DNA of 64,000 bases, taken from Candidatus Aenigmatarchaeota archaeon. GTDB lineage: Archaea > Aenigmatarchaeota > Aenigmatarchaeia > CG10238-14 > SCSR01. Positions 57,997-63,780 of the stretch are shown piece by piece. The position numbers were made by a program, and so were the translations under genes. The notes under the pieces were generated by a model. The model saw only the letters and a list, made by a program, of their open reading frames with translations, was not told the origin of the DNA and did no database searches. The stretch is from the NCBI GenBank assembly GCA_030615205.1, contig JAUWZS010000002.1, forward strand, positions 1 through 64,000. Reading direction: 5' to 3'. How positions within the stretch are numbered: position 1 is the first letter of the stretch; every line of letters begins with the position of its first letter.

Positions 57997-58914
57997 TCAT
58001 TTTCTTTTCAGCCAACCCATAAACTTTTCAAAGGTTGTATAGTCGACAGTACTGGCCTCGTCCTTAACATACTTGACTATTTCATGTGCAACATTCATCC
58101 CCAACGTCTTTTTCAGGCCCTCGAAATGCACGTTCACATTAGCTTCGATTATGACAGGTCCTTTCGGGCCTTTTATTATATCTATTCCTGTGATGTCCAT
58201 ACCAAGCACATCAGCAGCCTTTATTGAGATACTCTTCATATTTGTGTCAACTTTAATCGGTTCACCTATGCCACCTATTCCTATGTTTGCTCTCAGGTCG
58301 TCCTTCTCAGCAGTTCTTTTCATAGCGCCTAAAACGCCACCACCAAGAACGAATACGCGTATATCCTCGCCTGGGTTGGGTATATACTCTTCGAGGAATA
58401 TAGGCTCCTTCAATCTTTCAAGCGTATCCATAAGACTCTTTGCTGACTGCTTCGAATCCGCAAACATAACACCTTTGCCTAGACTACCATAAAGCAATTT
58501 TATCACAACTGGGTAATTCATATCATCAAGCAGATTTTCAAATGTCCCTCTTGATGCAGCCATAAAAGTTTTTGGCACAGGTAATCCGGCTTCTTTTAAT
58601 GCAAGCAATGTGAGGAATTTGTTGTGCGACACAATAACAGAACGCGGTTCAATGGGCATATAAACTTTTCCTTCAAGAGTTTTCAAAATCTTGTAGCCAA
58701 ACCACATATATGTCCTTGGTATTCTTGGCAGCACAAAATCAAGCTCAGCTAAATTTTTACCTTTGAAGAGCACTTTGCCATCGCTTATAACAATTGATGG
58801 CATAGGCGCATAAAAAAATTTGTCGAATACTTTTTTTCCTTCTTCCAGTAACCAAATTTCACAATCGCTTCTTATTTTCGGTCCGATGATGCAACCTTTC
58901 ATTTTAATCCTCAT
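57997..58914 (-). CDS. RimK-like ATP-grasp ligase
   Basis: A 305-residue protein. Pre-ATP-grasp Rossmann region (residues 1-100), then VVIKLLYGSLGKGVMFA (glycine loop), EEYIPNPGEDIRVFVLGG, MKRTAEKDDLRANIGIGGIGEP and GPVIIEANVNVHFEG (metal-binding EAN). This is the RimK/LysX/MptN group that adds Glu or amino-adipate-type residues. ATG 58914 overlaps the TGA of the next gene upstream, as ATGA. Confidence 0.85.
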   Translation of the reverse strand: MRIKMKGCIIGPKIRSDCEIWLLEEGKKVFDKFFYAPMPSIVISDGKVLFKGKNLAELDFVLPRIPRTYMWFGYKILKTLEGKVYMPIEPRSVIVSHNKFLTLLALKEAGLPVPKTFMAASRGTFENLLDDMNYPVVIKLLYGSLGKGVMFADSKQSAKSLMDTLERLKEPIFLEEYIPNPGEDIRVFVLGGGVLGAMKRTAEKDDLRANIGIGGIGEPIKVDTNMKSISIKAADVLGMDITGIDIIKGPKGPVIIEANVNVHFEGLKKTLGMNVAHEIVKYVKDEASTVDYTTFEKFMGWLKRK

Positions 58915-59828
58915 TTTTTGATTCTGAAAAACTCTTCGATTTTTGTGTGCCACCAAGGCTTTTCTACTTTGAATTTCCTGGAAGAACAGCTTACTATGTG
59001 TCTTGCGATATTAACCCCTGTTATTTTTTGAAAGTTTGAAAAATTCGGCGAAAGAGCAATCTTATCAAGTACCCATTCGTTTTTTTGCATTAGGAATCTC
59101 ATTGAGCAGTACTCGCAGCCGATGAGCTCTCTGGCCTTTATTGCTATATTTTTCAGTTTATCATCAACTGCAAACGGTCTATCTGCTTTTCCAGCGTTTC
59201 CAGTTTTTTCATAGCTTGCTATAACTTCATCTCCTAAAACAAAAACCCAGATGTTCTTCTCAGCCTTTATAGGCGTTTCGATTCTTATAGGTGTTCCTAT
59301 TTTATAAAGCGATATAACATCTTTTAGTGTCTGCTTGTTTGTTACTATAACACGTTTCTTCGGCGGTTTGACAATAACAGGATATTTTATATTCTCCTCT
59401 ACACTGTCCAAGGACGCATTTGATGCAACTGTAATTGATTTTCTAACAGGCAAACCATTGGAGCCCAGAAAGTTAAAAAGCAGCTGCTCATTCATGGTAA
59501 GAAGATATTTTTCTGCATTAATCGGTATGGTGTGAGCAGGTATAGTCTGGGCATCAAGCATCCGTAATGCAGTGTAGAAAAGCTCAGAATGCGTAATAGT
59601 CGGTATTGCGATTATGCAATCGAATTCTGCCAGATTAGCCCCGTTGAACCTAACACTTATCCCCCCCATAGGATCTCTGCTAAGTCTTGAAGCTCTACCA
59701 ATGTCGAATCTTATCTGCGTTATAGGTGCGTATACAACTGATCCAGCTCCAAATGCTTTCTCAGCCTCGGCCAGTATCGGCTGGTCCTTGGATTTCCTAT
59801 TAGGGTCTGCTAATATCGCGATCTTCAT
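58911..59828 (-). CDS. Degenerate RimK-like ATP-grasp paralogue
   Basis: A 305-residue protein with the same overall ATP-grasp order (Rossmann, VIVKPPKKRVIVT, IETPIKAEKNIWVFVLGDEV, FAVDDKLKNIAIKARELIG). The glycine loop is missing (KPPKKR replaces YGSLGKG), and the metal EAN motif is replaced by KIALSPNFSNF. It is likely catalytically inactive or altered. It is translationally coupled to the intact RimK-like enzyme (ATGA), suggesting a regulatory or scaffold partner role. Confidence 0.72.
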   Translation of the reverse strand: MKIAILADPNRKSKDQPILAEAEKAFGAGSVVYAPITQIRFDIGRASRLSRDPMGGISVRFNGANLAEFDCIIAIPTITHSELFYTALRMLDAQTIPAHTIPINAEKYLLTMNEQLLFNFLGSNGLPVRKSITVASNASLDSVEENIKYPVIVKPPKKRVIVTNKQTLKDVISLYKIGTPIRIETPIKAEKNIWVFVLGDEVIASYEKTGNAGKADRPFAVDDKLKNIAIKARELIGCEYCSMRFLMQKNEWVLDKIALSPNFSNFQKITGVNIARHIVSCSSRKFKVEKPWWHTKIEEFFRIKK

Positions 59829-59927: not shown

Positions 59928-61382
59928 CTATTTTTTCTTCTTAATTTTTTTAAATTTCCATCTAGTACCTTTGATTGTATCCTCGATTAAAACGCCGAAT
60001 TCTTCGCTCAAGCGCTTCCTTATCTCATCTGCTTCTTGATATTTGCCTATTTTCCTGAACTCTTCACGCTTTTTAATAAGCTCTTTCACCTCATCGCTCA
60101 GCTCCTTTTTCTTTGCTGGCTTCACGTCTTTTAGTCGCAGACCCAAGACCTCGTCGAACTTCAACAGTAGCTTCAGTTTGTTTTTGTCGCTGATTTGTTT
60201 TTCACGCACCACTTTCCAAGCCACGCTCAGTGCAGTCGGTGTGTTTAGGTCGTCATTTATTGCTTTCAAAAATTTGGTTTCATATGTTTCGATTTTCTTT
60301 TTATTGTTTTTCATTTTCTTTTTTGATTTTTTCCATTCGAGCACACGCTCTCGTAGCGTGTCTAATGCACGTTCGGCTGCTTCTAAACTTTCCCAAGTGA
60401 AATTAATCTTTGAGCGATAATGCGCTGTGAGGAACAGATAACGCAATGCAAACGGATCGGTGCCTTTAGCTTCAATATCAGCCATATTGTAAAAGTTTTG
60501 TTTGCTTTTGCTCATCTTGCCGCCGTCCACAAGCAGGAACTCATTATGCAACCAGAATCTTACCGGCTCTTTGCCAGTTGCAGCTTTGGCTTGTGCGATT
60601 TCGTTTGGATGATGTATGGGTATATGATCCACGCCGCCTGTGTGGATGTCAAAAGTTTCACCTAGATATTTTGTACTCATTACCGAGCACTCTATATGCC
60701 AGCCCGGGAAGCCCACTCCCCATGGCGACCGCCATTCCATTTGCCTTTTCATACGCTTAGGCGAGAATTTCCATAGCGCAAAATCGGTTACGTTTCTCTT
60801 TTCAGCACTGAACCTTATTCTCGCTCCTGGTTTGAGCCCTTCGATTTTTTTCTTATCCAATCCAGCAAGTTTCCCATAGTCGCTAAGCTTGGACGTATCG
60901 AAGTATATGCCATCGCTCGTTTTGTACGTATACCCGTTCTTCTCAATTTTCTTAATAAATTTAATCATGTCTTTTATATGATCAGTAGCTTTGCATATTT
61001 TGTCCGCTCGTTGTACGTTGAGCTTGTGCATCGCATCGAAAAAATCTTTTGTGTAGAATTTTGCAATTTCCCATGCACTCATCTTTTTTTCTCTTGCTGC
61101 TTTTTCTACTTTATCCTCACCAGTATCCGCGTCTGAAGTAAGATGGCCAACATCTGTGATATTCATTACTTGCTTGATTCGAAAACCATTGAATTTCAAC
61201 GCTCGCCTTAACACATCCACAAAAACATACGCACGGAAGTGTCCCAAATGCGCATAATCATACACAGTCGGACCGCAGCTGTACATCTTAACTAAGCCTG
61301 GCTTTAGCGACTTGAATATTTGCTTTCGCCTACCCATAGTGTTGAACAATCTTAAAGGAATCTTTTTCGTTTGTTTTTTCAT
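59928..61382 (-). CDS. cysS: Cysteinyl-tRNA synthetase
   Basis: A 484-residue class-I CysRS. YSCGPTVYDYAHLGHFRAYVF holds the zinc Cys and HLGH (HIGH) motif. KMSKSKQNF is the KMSKS loop. ECSVMSTKYLGETFDIHTGGVDHIPIHHPNE gives other metal and binding residues. AGTGATGGA precedes ATG 61382. It lies 30 bp downstream of the tRNA-Cys gene and is thus in the same transcription unit as cysK. Confidence 0.95.
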   Translation of the reverse strand: MKKQTKKIPLRLFNTMGRRKQIFKSLKPGLVKMYSCGPTVYDYAHLGHFRAYVFVDVLRRALKFNGFRIKQVMNITDVGHLTSDADTGEDKVEKAAREKKMSAWEIAKFYTKDFFDAMHKLNVQRADKICKATDHIKDMIKFIKKIEKNGYTYKTSDGIYFDTSKLSDYGKLAGLDKKKIEGLKPGARIRFSAEKRNVTDFALWKFSPKRMKRQMEWRSPWGVGFPGWHIECSVMSTKYLGETFDIHTGGVDHIPIHHPNEIAQAKAATGKEPVRFWLHNEFLLVDGGKMSKSKQNFYNMADIEAKGTDPFALRYLFLTAHYRSKINFTWESLEAAERALDTLRERVLEWKKSKKKMKNNKKKIETYETKFLKAINDDLNTPTALSVAWKVVREKQISDKNKLKLLLKFDEVLGLRLKDVKPAKKKELSDEVKELIKKREEFRKIGKYQEADEIRKRLSEEFGVLIEDTIKGTRWKFKKIKKKK

Positions 61383-61411
61383 TCCATCACTTCTAGAGGA
61401 TTCAATCTAAA

Positions 61412-61486
61412 AGCTGAGGATGGGATTTGAACCCATAATCTTCCGCTCTGCAGGCGGACGCGTTAACCAGATTCCGCCACCTCAGC
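61412..61486 (-). tRNA. tRNA-Cys(GCA)
   Basis: A 75-nt cloverleaf: acceptor GCUGAGG/CCUCAGC, anticodon stem UCCGC/GCGGA, loop CUGCAGA with anticodon GCA at 61449-61451, discriminator U. CCA is not encoded and there is no intron. It sits between cysK (36 bp upstream) and cysS (29 bp downstream), same strand. Confidence 0.93.
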
Positions 61487-61522
61487 TTAATTTAATTTAT
61501 ATTTTTACTTTTTATTAACTCC

Positions 61523-62521
61523 TTATTTAAACAAATCGGTGCTTAAATAACGCTCACCACCGTCAGGCAATATCGCTACTATTGTTTTCCCGGTGCCAAG
61601 TTTCTTTGCTTTCTGTAGCGCTATATGCATAACTGCGCCCGAGCTCATACCGACCAGCAAGCCTTCTTTTAGTGCCAACTGCCTTGCTGTTTCGAACGCG
61701 TCCTCATCTTTTATATTGATTTTTTCGTCCAATTTCCTGCTCACGTATATGCTTGGCACATAAGCCTCTTTCATGTTTTTCATACCTTGCAATTTGTGGC
61801 CTATGTAAGGCTCGACACCCACAATTTTTATTTCCGGGTTTAATTCCTTCAGCCGTTTGCCAGTGCCCATAATTGTTCCAGTTGTGCCCATAGCTGCGAT
61901 TACCATATCTACGCGACCTCCAGTCTGTTCCCATATTTCCGTAGCTGTTGTTTCGTAATGTGCTTGCGGATTCCATTTGTTGTTGAATTGATTTGGCAAG
62001 AAATATTTTTCTGGTTCGTCTCGTACCATTGCATACGCTTGTTCTATTGCACCATCCGTCCCTTTCTCCTTTGGTGTCAGCAGCAGCTCGGCACCGAATG
62101 CACGTAAGATTTTTCTCCTCTCGATGCTAACTGACTCTGGCATAACAAAAAGTGCGCGGTAGCCTTTTACTGCTGCGACTATTGCCAAGCCAATGCCTGT
62201 ATTGCCTGATGTAGGCTCTAAAATAATTTTATCTTTTGTTAGTTTGCCCTCGCGTTCTGCAGCTTCAATCATAAACTTCGCAATTCTATCCTTAATCGAG
62301 CCACCAATATTCTGCCGCTCAAGCTTTGCAAGAACTGTTGCATCACCTGGCCCGACGAGTTTGTTTATTTTTACAAGTGGTGTGTTTCCGATTAAATCCA
62401 AAACAGAATTTGCAATAGAATTATGAGCAGGATTGGAATGAACAGACTTAGGATTAGCAATAGGTTTAACTTTAGCATTTGCATTCGACGCATTTACAGC
62501 ATGCACAGCAAAAACGTTCAC
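61523..62521 (-). CDS. cysK: Cysteine synthase (PLP, CysK/O-acetylserine sulfhydrylase type)
   Basis: A 332-residue beta-family PLP enzyme. Motifs: IGNTPLVKINKLVG, the PLP lysine in GGSIKDRIAKFMIE, PTSGNTGIGLAIVAAVKG, MGTTGTIMGTGKRLKELNP, and GMSSGAVMHIALQKA near the C-terminus. Residues 1-35 (MNVFAVHAVNASNANAKV...) are low-complexity and have no counterpart in the family. No ATG lies in this frame before the domain: GTG 62521 and TTG about 62401 are the options. Frame and start are complicated by the overlapping Cys-rich ORF. Confidence 0.88.
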   Translation of the reverse strand: MNVFAVHAVNASNANAKVKPIANPKSVHSNPAHNSIANSVLDLIGNTPLVKINKLVGPGDATVLAKLERQNIGGSIKDRIAKFMIEAAEREGKLTKDKIILEPTSGNTGIGLAIVAAVKGYRALFVMPESVSIERRKILRAFGAELLLTPKEKGTDGAIEQAYAMVRDEPEKYFLPNQFNNKWNPQAHYETTATEIWEQTGGRVDMVIAAMGTTGTIMGTGKRLKELNPEIKIVGVEPYIGHKLQGMKNMKEAYVPSIYVSRKLDEKINIKDEDAFETARQLALKEGLLVGMSSGAVMHIALQKAKKLGTGKTIVAILPDGGERYLSTDLFK

Positions 62522-62525
62522 CCAT
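62472..62525 (-). CDS. Cysteine-rich leader peptide overlapping cysK
   Basis: A 17-codon ORF on the minus strand from ATG 62525. The product is MGERF followed by CCACCKCVECKC: seven Cys in the last 12 residues, all TGC or TGT. AGGTGA (62531-62536) lies exactly 5 nt upstream, the best Shine-Dalgarno context at this locus. It ends TAA 62472 inside the cysK N-terminal extension, read in the +1 frame. This resembles cysteine attenuator leader peptides; it could sense Cys-tRNA level for the following cysK-tRNA-Cys-cysS genes (inference). Confidence 0.65.
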   Translation of the reverse strand: MGERFCCACCKCVECKC

Positions 62526-62530
62526 CTGTT

Positions 62531-62571
62531 TCACCTTAGGATTTTATACAATCTAAAGTTTAAAAAGCTAT
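62531..62571 (-). promoter_or_regulatory. Promoter and Shine-Dalgarno of the cysteine module
   Basis: On the minus strand a TTTTTAAAC box (about 62562-62571) would place transcription start near 62540, a short leader before the AGGTGA at 62536-62531. A second TATAAAAT lies at about 62542-62549. The SD sits 5 nt from ATG 62525 and 9 nt from GTG 62521, so one ribosome site could serve both reading frames. Confidence 0.45.
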
Positions 62572-62591
62572 CTGATTCGCTCTTTTTTTGT

Positions 62592-62870
62592 CTACTTTTT
62601 CTTTTTCTTCTTCGCTTCTTTTTTCAGTTTGAGGAAACGCATCTCATTGCCGCATTTACTGCATCGTACAAGAAACTTTCTCTTTGTTCCTTCGCCGATA
62701 ACTAGAGGCTCCTCCCACAGCTCGTGACGCTTCTCGCTAAATCCGCATTCTGGGCATGTATAATCCACGAGCGCTTTTGGTTGCTCTTTCAGCTTTACAA
62801 TTCTTACTTTTCCTTTAACTTCGCCAGCTTTGTTTGTCAACTCGCGTGTTGTTACAAATTCGATTGCCAT
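62592..62870 (-). CDS. Conserved zinc-ribbon protein (TFIIS-like ribbon)
   Basis: A 92-residue protein with CPECGFSEKRHELWEEPLVIGEGTKRKFLVRCSKCGNEMRFLKL, a CxxC...CxxC ribbon, preceded by a short beta region (VTTRELTNKAGEVKGKVRIVKL) and ended by a poly-Lys tail. I cannot name it; similar short ribbons occur near eL40 in small archaeal genomes. 43 bp from eL40, same strand, so probably co-transcribed. Confidence 0.6.
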   Translation of the reverse strand: MAIEFVTTRELTNKAGEVKGKVRIVKLKEQPKALVDYTCPECGFSEKRHELWEEPLVIGEGTKRKFLVRCSKCGNEMRFLKLKKEAKKKKKK

Positions 62871-62913
62871 ATTTGATACCTAAGTACTTTTTTACGCCTG
62901 ACTTTTTCACATC

Positions 62914-63093
62914 TTATTTTTTCACACCTGGTTTTCTTTTCGGCCGCAATGCTTTCGATCCGCACTTTCTGCATTTTACCTTACCCACGCGCACATGCCT
63001 AGCATCCGCACGAATTTTGCTTTTGCAGACCTTACATACAAAAACGCGATGAAAGAGCCTAGCTGTTGCTTCTGGAAATATCTTCTTTGTCAT
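62914..63093 (-). CDS. rpl40e: Ribosomal protein eL40
   Basis: A 59-residue protein: FPEATARLFHRVFVCKVCKSKIRAD... followed by KCRKCGSKALRPKRK. The CxxC...CxxC zinc site is intact. Below the usual length cut-off for ORF calling. Confidence 0.92.
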   Translation of the reverse strand: MTKKIFPEATARLFHRVFVCKVCKSKIRADARHVRVGKVKCRKCGSKALRPKRKPGVKK

Positions 63094-63180
63094 AGTATCA
63101 TGCTCTCTATCACATTATTTGTCTTCTATAAAATAAACTTAAGTTAAATTTAAATATTAAATGAAATGTAGGGGAATTAG

Positions 63181-63780
63181 ATGATTGAGACTAAAAAGAT
63201 TAAACGTGAAATCCGCATCCTGGGATTTGATGATGCTGCTTTCGAGCCTAACACAGCAGGCGAGAGCGTGCCGGTTATTGGCGTTGTCTATCGTGGCGGC
63301 GACTTTATAGATGGCATGCTGCGTACGGATATAACTATAGACGGCATGGATTCGACTGATAAGCTCATTGAACGGATAAATTCCACGCGGCACAAGCAGC
63401 AGCTCAAAGTGATTATGTTTGACGGCATAACACTCGGCGGGTTTAATATAATAGATATACACAGGCTTCACGAGCAGACAGGACTGCCTGTCATAGTTAT
63501 AGCACGGAAAATGCCAAATTTTGAAGATGTACAAAAAGCTTTAAAAAATTTCAAAGACTATAAAATACGGTGGAAACTCATCAAAAAAGCAGGAGAGCCT
63601 AAACAGTGCGTTTTAAAAGGAGGAAAAAAGGTATATTATCAATCAGTAGGCCTAAGCGATAAAAAAGCAGAAGAAATAATAATATTAAGTTCAACACGGA
63701 GTTTCATACCAGAGCCTTTGCGTGTTGCACATCTAATCGCAACAGCCATTGTAAAAGGTGAGAGTAGTGGTCGTGCGTAA
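63181..63780 (+). CDS. DUF99 family protein (endonuclease V-like fold)
   Basis: A 199-residue protein with IRILGFDDAAFEP, VVYRGGDFIDGMLRTDITIDG, KVIMFDGITLGGFNIIDI and the final STRSFIPEPLRVAHLIATAI. Archaeal DUF99 proteins share an RNase-H-like fold with endonuclease V. Biochemical role unknown. ATG 63181. Confidence 0.88.
   Translation: MIETKKIKREIRILGFDDAAFEPNTAGESVPVIGVVYRGGDFIDGMLRTDITIDGMDSTDKLIERINSTRHKQQLKVIMFDGITLGGFNIIDIHRLHEQTGLPVIVIARKMPNFEDVQKALKNFKDYKIRWKLIKKAGEPKQCVLKGGKKVYYQSVGLSDKKAEEIIILSSTRSFIPEPLRVAHLIATAIVKGESSGRA

Follow-up and report, generated by a model that had tools for sequence, protein, structure and literature searches.

We found that the cysteine synthase gene (cysK) in a stretch of 64,000 nucleotides (nt) from a Candidatus Aenigmatarchaeota archaeon (assembly GCA_030615205.1, contig JAUWZS010000002.1, positions 1 to 64,000; hereafter, the window) is overlapped by a short, cysteine-codon-rich reading frame, and we consider it likely, on the grounds of sequence comparisons, that CysK is made through programmed +1 frameshifting of the ribosome in response to the level of charged tRNA-Cys. 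In the proposed mechanism, ribosomes would initiate at ATG 62525, translate MGERF and reach a TGC codon with TTT in the peptidyl (P) site and the Shine-Dalgarno (SD)-like sequence GGTGA four bases upstream. When Cys-tRNA is plentiful, TGC would be decoded in the aminoacyl (A) site and translation would stop 12 codons on; when it is scarce, the A site would stay empty, the P-site tRNA would move on by a single base, from TTT to TTT within TTTTT, and translation would proceed in the cysK frame. The shifted CysK would begin with MGERFAVHAVNASNANAK, where a GTG start would give MNVFAVHA instead. Such action would be akin to that of the bacterial prfB gene, with UGA replaced by a sense codon of the amino acid that is regulated; we infer the slip itself, its response to starvation and its stimulation by the SD-like element. 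As the same device stands, at its own codon, before Trp, Tyr and perhaps Lys genes, scarcity of an amino acid is suggested to switch on the genes that supply it. With somewhat less assurance, we also think it probable that the phylum relies on +1 frameshifting at hungry codons to sense amino acids in general, with a module (start codon, SD-like GGTGA, slippery NXX-X and sensed codon) placed before biosynthetic, aminoacyl-tRNA synthetase and tRNA genes as well as dedicated winged-helix regulators. The A-site codon alone would set the specificity of this module (Cys, Trp, Tyr, Lys), which would sometimes be doubled in series to sharpen the response and would, before tRNA genes, hold ribosomes on the nascent transcript.

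The whole cysK locus lies on the reverse (-) strand. Its initiating zero-frame open reading frame (ORF; 62472..62525, product MGERFCCACCKCVECKC) begins 5 nt after the SD sequence AAGGTGA (62531..62537) and continues from ATG 62525 as GGT GAA CGT TTT TGC TGT GCA TGC TGT AAA TGC GTC GAA TGC AAA TGC TAA (stop 62474-62472), i.e. 17 codons with Cys at 7 of the final 12; if the Cys codon is read, this frame ends early. The internal SD-like GGTGA (62518..62522), to which we assign a stimulating role by analogy with prfB, lies 4 nt before the P-site codon, and in prfB a similarly short SD spacing pushes the ribosome forward. At the candidate shift site TTT TGC (62508..62513; P-site TTT 62513-62511, A-site TGC 62510-62508), T62510 would be skipped; its NTY-TGY form is kept in six cysK loci and its register recurs in sister genes, and the six further Cys codons of the zero-frame tail (62475..62507) are not conserved in relatives. 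The cysK ORF (61523-62521; PF00291, E 2e-71; TIGR01136 cysteine synthase, E 3e-113) sits +1 relative to the frame of ATG 62525, and the part entered after the shift (GCT GTG CAT ..., 61523..62509) would give the product MGERF-AVHAVNASN.... Upstream of the CysK domain the in-frame ATG, GTG or TTG codons are limited to GTG 62521 (62519..62521, a rival CysK start that overlaps the SD-like element; several sister genes lack it or have a +1-frame stop between it and the domain), GTG 62506 and TTG 62401, with no ATG among them. Furthermore, none of the alignments to 11 relatives (E < 1e-50) reaches further towards the N-terminus than residue 30 of the 332-residue CysK query, so that the N-terminal extension of about 35 residues is not common to homologues. 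The Cys-rich 17-codon ORF behind an SD sequence and overlapping cysK in +1, the short list of in-frame starts and the extension absent from homologues had all been pointed out in the original prediction, made from the letters of the window, and are confirmed here.

Across the phylum sample of 156 genomes (class-level and phylum-level searches both yield 156; genomes are labelled G..., G000 being the window's own, and loci L...), cysK was detected in 23 (E <= 1e-40), and 24 loci were inspected at the gene start. Six of the 24 have the module start-(0-2 codons)-GGN-GAA-NNN-NTY-TGY with cysK in +1: the window (ATG GGT GAA CGT TTT TGC), G029 (ATG AAA GGT GAA TAT TTT TGC), G031 (ATG ACT GGT GAA CAA GTT TGC), G021 (GTG AAA GGG GAA TTA CTT TGT TGA), G146 (ATG AAA AAG GGT GAA CGA CTC TGC TGA) and G061 (ATG AAC GGT GAA TAT CTT TGC). 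A one-base slip at NTY-T-GY yields a natural cysK N-terminus in these genes (e.g. MNGEYL-AKNALDLIGNTP and MTGEQV-AQNVTELVGNTP). Six cysK loci have no in-frame ATG near the domain; five of these have the module and the sixth (L010) is a match without the domain start, while among the best 80 cysK loci from other organisms the module was found in none. Moreover, the third-base changes of the fixed codons among the six genes (GGT/GGG, CTT/CTC, TGC/TGT) leave the ATG-frame peptide unaltered and alter that of the GTG frame. The original prediction had named relatives with an intact cysK and no conserved Cys-codon run as what would refute it, and the five other leaders are of this kind (their zero frames have one or two Cys codons, and those of G021 and G146 stop directly after the first); what all five retain is the first Cys codon within GGN-GAA-NNN-NTY-TGY. 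Its idea of cysteine sensing and of a +1 slip fusing the leader to CysK holds in spirit, with the location moved from TGC-T-AAA to the conserved TTT-T-GC (62513-62510), where the first Cys codon stands. The former site was rejected, since any stop codon would allow such a +1 step and the relatives stop elsewhere.

The Cys run by itself is only modestly unusual and partly a shadow of the CysK extension, given that synonymous-codon resampling of the +1 protein produced a mean of 3.04 Cys codons with P(>=7) = 0.009. One could go further and regard the Cys codons as nothing but a by-product of a GTG-started extension of low complexity (Ala/Asn), an explanation that the null mean of 3 favours for the length of the run only; we find it scarcely credible, because unrelated genes and genomes repeat the first Cys codon in its context, and the recurrence across the phylum of start-GGN-GAA-NNN-NTY-TGY with a downstream gene in +1 far exceeds chance. 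The run may reinforce the sensor, though it is not conserved; a metal-binding Cys peptide was rejected, as the run is not conserved.

In line with a wider use of the module, its recurrence is not confined to cysK. A search of the 156 genomes with ATGNNNGGNGAANNNNTYTGY (the TGY pattern) gave 23 matches against 4 for the reversed pattern, and 13 of these matches belong to Cys operons as leaders that have a +1 ORF (cysK, a position before tRNA-Cys or the cysteinyl-tRNA synthetase CysRS, or a winged-helix gene of about 70 codons), the other 10 resembling background. These TGY modules are clustered, with three within 464 bp in G029 and three inside 1.8 kb in G031. The corresponding TGG pattern returned 16 matches against 3 reversed, eight of which lie in operons of the tryptophanyl-tRNA synthetase TrpRS (three in G029, two in G025 and one each in G031, G087 and G015); a ninth is the winged-helix gene G104b and seven resemble background. 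When 42 regions were scanned for either codon, 48 of the 51 matches had a +1 ORF exceeding the zero-frame tail in length, with TGG at 17/17 in TrpRS regions, TGY at 26/26 in CysRS or cysK regions (two doubtful) and five located elsewhere. The genes behind the module are unrelated and include cysK, a SerK-like kinase, a ThiI-like gene, winged-helix genes, a racemase and a GNAT gene (both from the Trp set) and others. The kinase, of the SerK/SbnI type (PDB 5x0b, E 2e-11), follows a TTT TGT site, and SerK-type serine kinases have a role in archaeal Cys synthesis.

The role of the A-site codon was also examined in the winged-helix family, which was collected by protein similarity alone and in which some members have TGG or AAG where others have TGY. 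If this codon is the sensor, TGG genes should adjoin TrpRS and AAG genes the lysyl-tRNA synthetase LysRS, a prediction fixed before the neighbours were inspected. Among 32 curated winged-helix genes, 11 TGY genes have CysRS and 10 TGG genes have TrpRS in the fetched region, with zero crossover (exact test on 11 vs 10, 1/352,716 = 2.8e-6, for genes that share descent). The sequences show the architecture, its conservation and the match between A-site codon and operon: wherever CysRS/cysK or TrpRS lies in the region, the codon is that of the operon's amino acid without exception for Cys and Trp, in many genomes, and the same holds twice for Tyr and once for Lys (one of three AAG genes). We argue that the winged-helix protein of these sister operons is probably a regulator made under starvation. 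The match also bears on the possibility that the +1 frameshift is real and has a set ratio, driven by sequence and indifferent to the supply of aminoacyl-tRNA. A slippery NTT-T plus an SD-like element could suffice for such a site, and the register is indeed fixed in 51 of the 57 leaders described below; a codon that matches the operon's amino acid, as it does for Cys, Trp and Tyr and for Lys in a single genome, would however be needless at a constitutive site, and we deem this explanation unlikely.

The start codons available to the +1 genes were compared over 57 sites (the window and 56 others), a list curated after the pattern and homology searches, so that its percentages are descriptive. 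Left out were G019 (whose leader is truncated where the contig ends), G144 (with an ordinary ATG), G092 (ambiguous), G069 (in-frame ATG), L279:3924 (TTG start, doubtful), the antisense L250:14507, and those matches of the pattern searches and region scan that came without a plausible +1 gene. At all 57 sites the initiating ORF is overlapped by a +1 main ORF, with medians of 6 codons for the zero-frame tail and 71 for the +1 ORF. Upstream of the shift, the +1 frame has no ATG, GTG or TTG at 18 sites, GTG alone at 33, GTG/TTG at 3, TTG at 2 and ATG at 1, i.e. an in-frame ATG is absent at 56/57; among Trp-type winged-helix genes, those of G029 and G031 have a TAG after the potential GTG start, and that of G034 has a TAG and no GTG. 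This distribution is difficult to reconcile with leader-peptide attenuation as put forward in the original prediction, under which CysK would start at GTG 62521 and an overlapping Cys peptide would stall ribosomes at low Cys-tRNA, after the analogy of the Cys-rich leader ORFs that regulate genes in mycobacteria. Attenuation is favoured by the strong SD sequence that serves the out-of-frame ATG, by the Cys-rich tail and by an in-frame GTG in 5/6 cysK genes, and it might hold for the window's own CysK; it calls, however, for a conserved run of regulatory codons followed by a stop, and the run is peculiar to the window. We reject it as the principal explanation because sister genes have no +1-frame start, have a stop between GTG and domain, or have their domain split across the shift, and we regard it as improbable.

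The sites themselves also resemble those of prfB-type frameshifts. GGN G[AG]N occurs at the matching register in 51/57 leaders and exact GGTGA in 33, many of these leaders having been found by patterns that already contained a GGTGA-type element. The 16S rRNA of the window's own genome fits the archaeal model best within its clan, marking the genome as archaeal; its 3' end is GGATCACCTCC, complementary to GGAGGTGATCC, so that GGTGA can pair with it. The P-site codons are CTT (27), GTT (16), TTT (5), CTC (3), ATT (2), GAA (2), CCC (1) and CAA (1); the TTT-T of the window can re-pair after a +1 step, and GTT, ATT, GAA and CAA would re-pair only partly. Transcriptional slippage was judged unlikely, as base runs at the sites are short and CCC-T and GAA-A are among them; so was sequencing or assembly error, given that many genomes have the same offset.

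In five winged-helix genes (G077, G078b, G084, G085 and G089) the shift would fall inside the domain, with helix 1 in one frame and the remaining domain in the next. Four of them (G078b, G084, G085 and G089; loci L271, L272, L273 and L274) also need an earlier +1 shift, each at (CTT or CCC) TGG, and some winged-helix genes hence seem to require two successive +1 shifts, both at a Trp codon. Scored with a winged-helix hidden Markov model (HMM) built without G077 and G092, the fused product exceeded the last frame in 5/5 genes by full-sequence bits (G077 61.0/53.4, G078b 53.3/50.7, G084 51.9/47.6, G085 47.6/44.4, G089 51.3/49.5; fused/last frame) and in 4/5 by best-domain bits, with the unshifted product or a two-base skip scoring < 8 bits.

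Several observations weigh against a frameshift sensor. At the level of start codons, a plain in-frame ATG is present at 17/24 of the phylum's cysK loci, the cysK of G021 has an additional ATG at the domain edge, and the cysK-like gene of G069 (L344:3779, -) combines the motif CTT TGT with an in-frame ATG 5 nt upstream; GTG is the sole upstream start type at 33/57 sites, and in the window the GTG within GGTGA is available to cysK. In all six cysK genes GAA is followed by a pyrimidine (giving AAY, for Asn, when read in the GTG frame), the AAC/AAT changes are silent solely in the GTG frame and are also explained by a GTG-started protein, and the codon after GAA and the first P-site base vary in both frames. 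The counts of sites are not independent, because the sites are related by descent. The HMM gains of the fused products are just 1.8 to 7.6 bits by full sequence, and G078b is 0.8 bits lower by best domain (49.7 vs 50.5); the weak conservation of helix 1 accounts for the modest size of the gains. Within the winged-helix family, 9/32 genes have no matching synthetase in the fetched region by tblastn (TGY: G080, G123, G126 and G086; TGG: G104b, G092 and G089; AAG: G078a and G067), and re-inspection of part of these nine gave the tyrosyl-tRNA synthetase (TyrRS) at G080 as the sole synthetase match: this Cys-codon gene (L254), with no CysRS in its region, has TyrRS about 5 kb away together with tRNA-Tyr, and is an exception to the codon-operon match. 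Finally, the winged-helix gene of G144 has an ordinary ATG and adjoins cysK and CysRS. A search for winged-helix genes in G156, to which L087 belongs, gave no match and, having had no positive control, is uninformative.

A frameshift sensor with an exchangeable codon is also consistent with the tyrosine and candidate lysine versions of the module. The Tyr-codon pattern, run over the 156 genomes as a background control, gave 23 matches (17 reversed), all of which were inspected. One of them, in G059 (ATG ATT GGT GAA CGG GTT TAT TGA), has a 61-codon +1 ORF that stops 23 nt before tyrosine--tRNA ligase (NF006330, E 2e-107); a clearly longer +1 ORF was otherwise seen at L307 (840 codons, with a zero-frame stop ahead of the site), L308 and L313. 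The broader pattern ATGGGTGAANNNNTYTNH (A-site codon T-initial and not G-final) gave 51 matches against 8 reversed, of which 30 loci were inspected (two of them, and two others, over a wider region): most are ordinary zero-frame genes, and nine have a short zero frame with a longer +1 ORF, six of these being the module. L321 was rejected as a chance match inside a long gene, L334 and L335 being the other short-zero-frame loci outside the module. In G029 (C53; L346:3194, -), ATG GGT GAA TGC TTT TAT lies 106 nt upstream of a tRNA-Tyr with C1-G72, an intron following position 37 and, by manual reading, a GTA (Tyr) anticodon; ARAGORN put the splice elsewhere and called Asn. For lysine, the window's own genome has a winged-helix gene in +1 (G000:C29:350618-350797; L186:5583-5906; L265:9913-10101) behind the leader GGT GAA CGA GAA AAG, 933 nt before a class I LysRS (L186:6512-8197); this leader is perhaps a lysine version of the module, and Lys is the weakest case of all.

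Some modules stand before tRNA genes, where a protein is not needed, and it is this placement before tRNA-Cys and tRNA-Tyr that could favour a reading of the conserved string as an operator, in DNA or RNA, that covers the start region, with the frames incidental. The matching codon nevertheless switches with the operon, the third-base changes of fixed codons do not alter the ATG-frame peptide, and in G029, G031, G032, G053 and G094 no stop interrupts the +1 frame across the tRNA-Cys gene (in G033 it closes shortly before the tRNA), which makes an operator very improbable. Such ORFs suggest translation-dependent control of tRNA transcription, and leaders before tRNA genes probably act by holding ribosomes on the nascent RNA. 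In G053 (L277:2938-3718) the +1 frame crosses a tRNA-Cys-like sequence (without an ARAGORN call) and enters a ThiI-like domain.

As to known systems, leader-peptide attenuators and T-box elements of bacteria respond to the supply of aminoacyl-tRNA and control synthetase and biosynthesis operons via RNA structure, with no known frameshift; the module would share with them the sensing of supply and differ by the proposed frameshift. An Rfam scan of window positions 61300-63200 (E up to 1) found no T-box, returning only the tRNA and one sub-threshold chance match. The +1 site of yeast Ty1, a retroelement that, unlike what is proposed for the module, is not known to sense the amino acid, has to our knowledge no SD-like element. 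The G061 site TAT CTT TGC A resembles that of E. coli prfB, which we take to be TAT CTT TGA C. Bacterial prfB (RF2, CTT_TGA_C) has in common with the module, in the account of PMC3711429, a short zero-frame start, an SD-type upstream stimulator, a YTT P site and, as proposed here for the module, the +1 direction and a product made when the A-site ligand is scarce. The module differs from it in being archaeal, in its A-site sense codon (Cys, Trp, Tyr, Lys), in its association with amino-acid supply and synthetase operons, in its several copies in some operons and in genes that seemingly shift twice; the cysK site, prfB-like as it is, is no member of the prfB class because its A site is a sense codon (no UGA) and its gene is cysK (no RF2). 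The same account relates that some prfB shifts < 50 nt from the start escaped detection (PMC3711429), a gap near gene starts that may also explain why genes of the present kind were overlooked. Ty1 (CUU_AGG_C, +1) resembles the module in its slow A-site sense codon and its CUU in the P site, as described in PMC5009743. Hungry-codon frameshifting (Gallant; PMC5009743), a subject of long study, is alike in its proposed physics, an empty A site at a codon short of aminoacyl-tRNA letting the P-site tRNA slip, and unlike in that it is known, as that source presents it, from starved cells and without a regulatory role; of starvation-specific trans-frame proteins made via hungry codons, this 2016 review by Atkins states that 'no examples are known' (PMC5009743). 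Programmed frameshifting in archaea is represented by fucA1 of Saccharolobus, a -1 shift described as the only -1 case reported in archaea (PMC8211752), and by the archaeal virus HSTV-2, for which +1 frameshifting was predicted and called very likely (PMC5009743); neither is tied to amino-acid supply in the accounts cited (PMC8211752, PMC5009743). We found no report of an amino-acid-sensing frameshift system like this one among the matches listed in the open-licence PMC literature. If the proposal is true, it would represent a natural use of starved-codon frameshifting for a starvation-specific product, repeated for several amino acids, in which aminoacyl-tRNA is sensed directly at the ribosome, and it would amount to a programmable device, where one codon change should alter the sensed amino acid. 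Gene callers would miss or truncate such regulators and enzymes.

Downstream of cysK in the window, and on the same strand, lie tRNA-Cys (GCA; 61411..61487, -) and cysS (59928..61382, -; PF01406, E 2e-98), the cysteinyl-tRNA synthetase gene, which has an ordinary ATG start; two tandem RimK-like ATP-grasp ORFs (57997-59828, -) lie downstream of cysS. The cysteine-synthase-like gene of G069 is possibly an intermediate or escaped form of the module. In other Cys operons, +1 ORFs of 51-86 codons are open across tRNA-Cys genes (L250:9598, L251:2497, L279:4980 and L278:5634 (-)), a leader at L280:1771 stops just before the tRNA, and a LAGLIDADG protein of G008 (L248:2709-3410, -) is itself preceded by a TTT TGC leader, though an in-frame ATG is at its disposal. 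A match at G095:C54 was set aside as chance. Downstream of the tRNA-Tyr of G029 are a racemase-like ORF and an ORF resembling one from Trp operons. Look-alike ORFs with a (V/A)DEF motif are found in or near Trp-type loci (L260:4869-5711, L261 near 3485 (-) and L184:5051-5884), and the one tested (L260) has no Pfam match. Lastly, two leaders have a stop codon in the A site and short +1 ORFs: ATG GGT GAA CGA CTC TAA (L325, G004) and ATG GGT GAA CGT TTC TAA (L316, G068).

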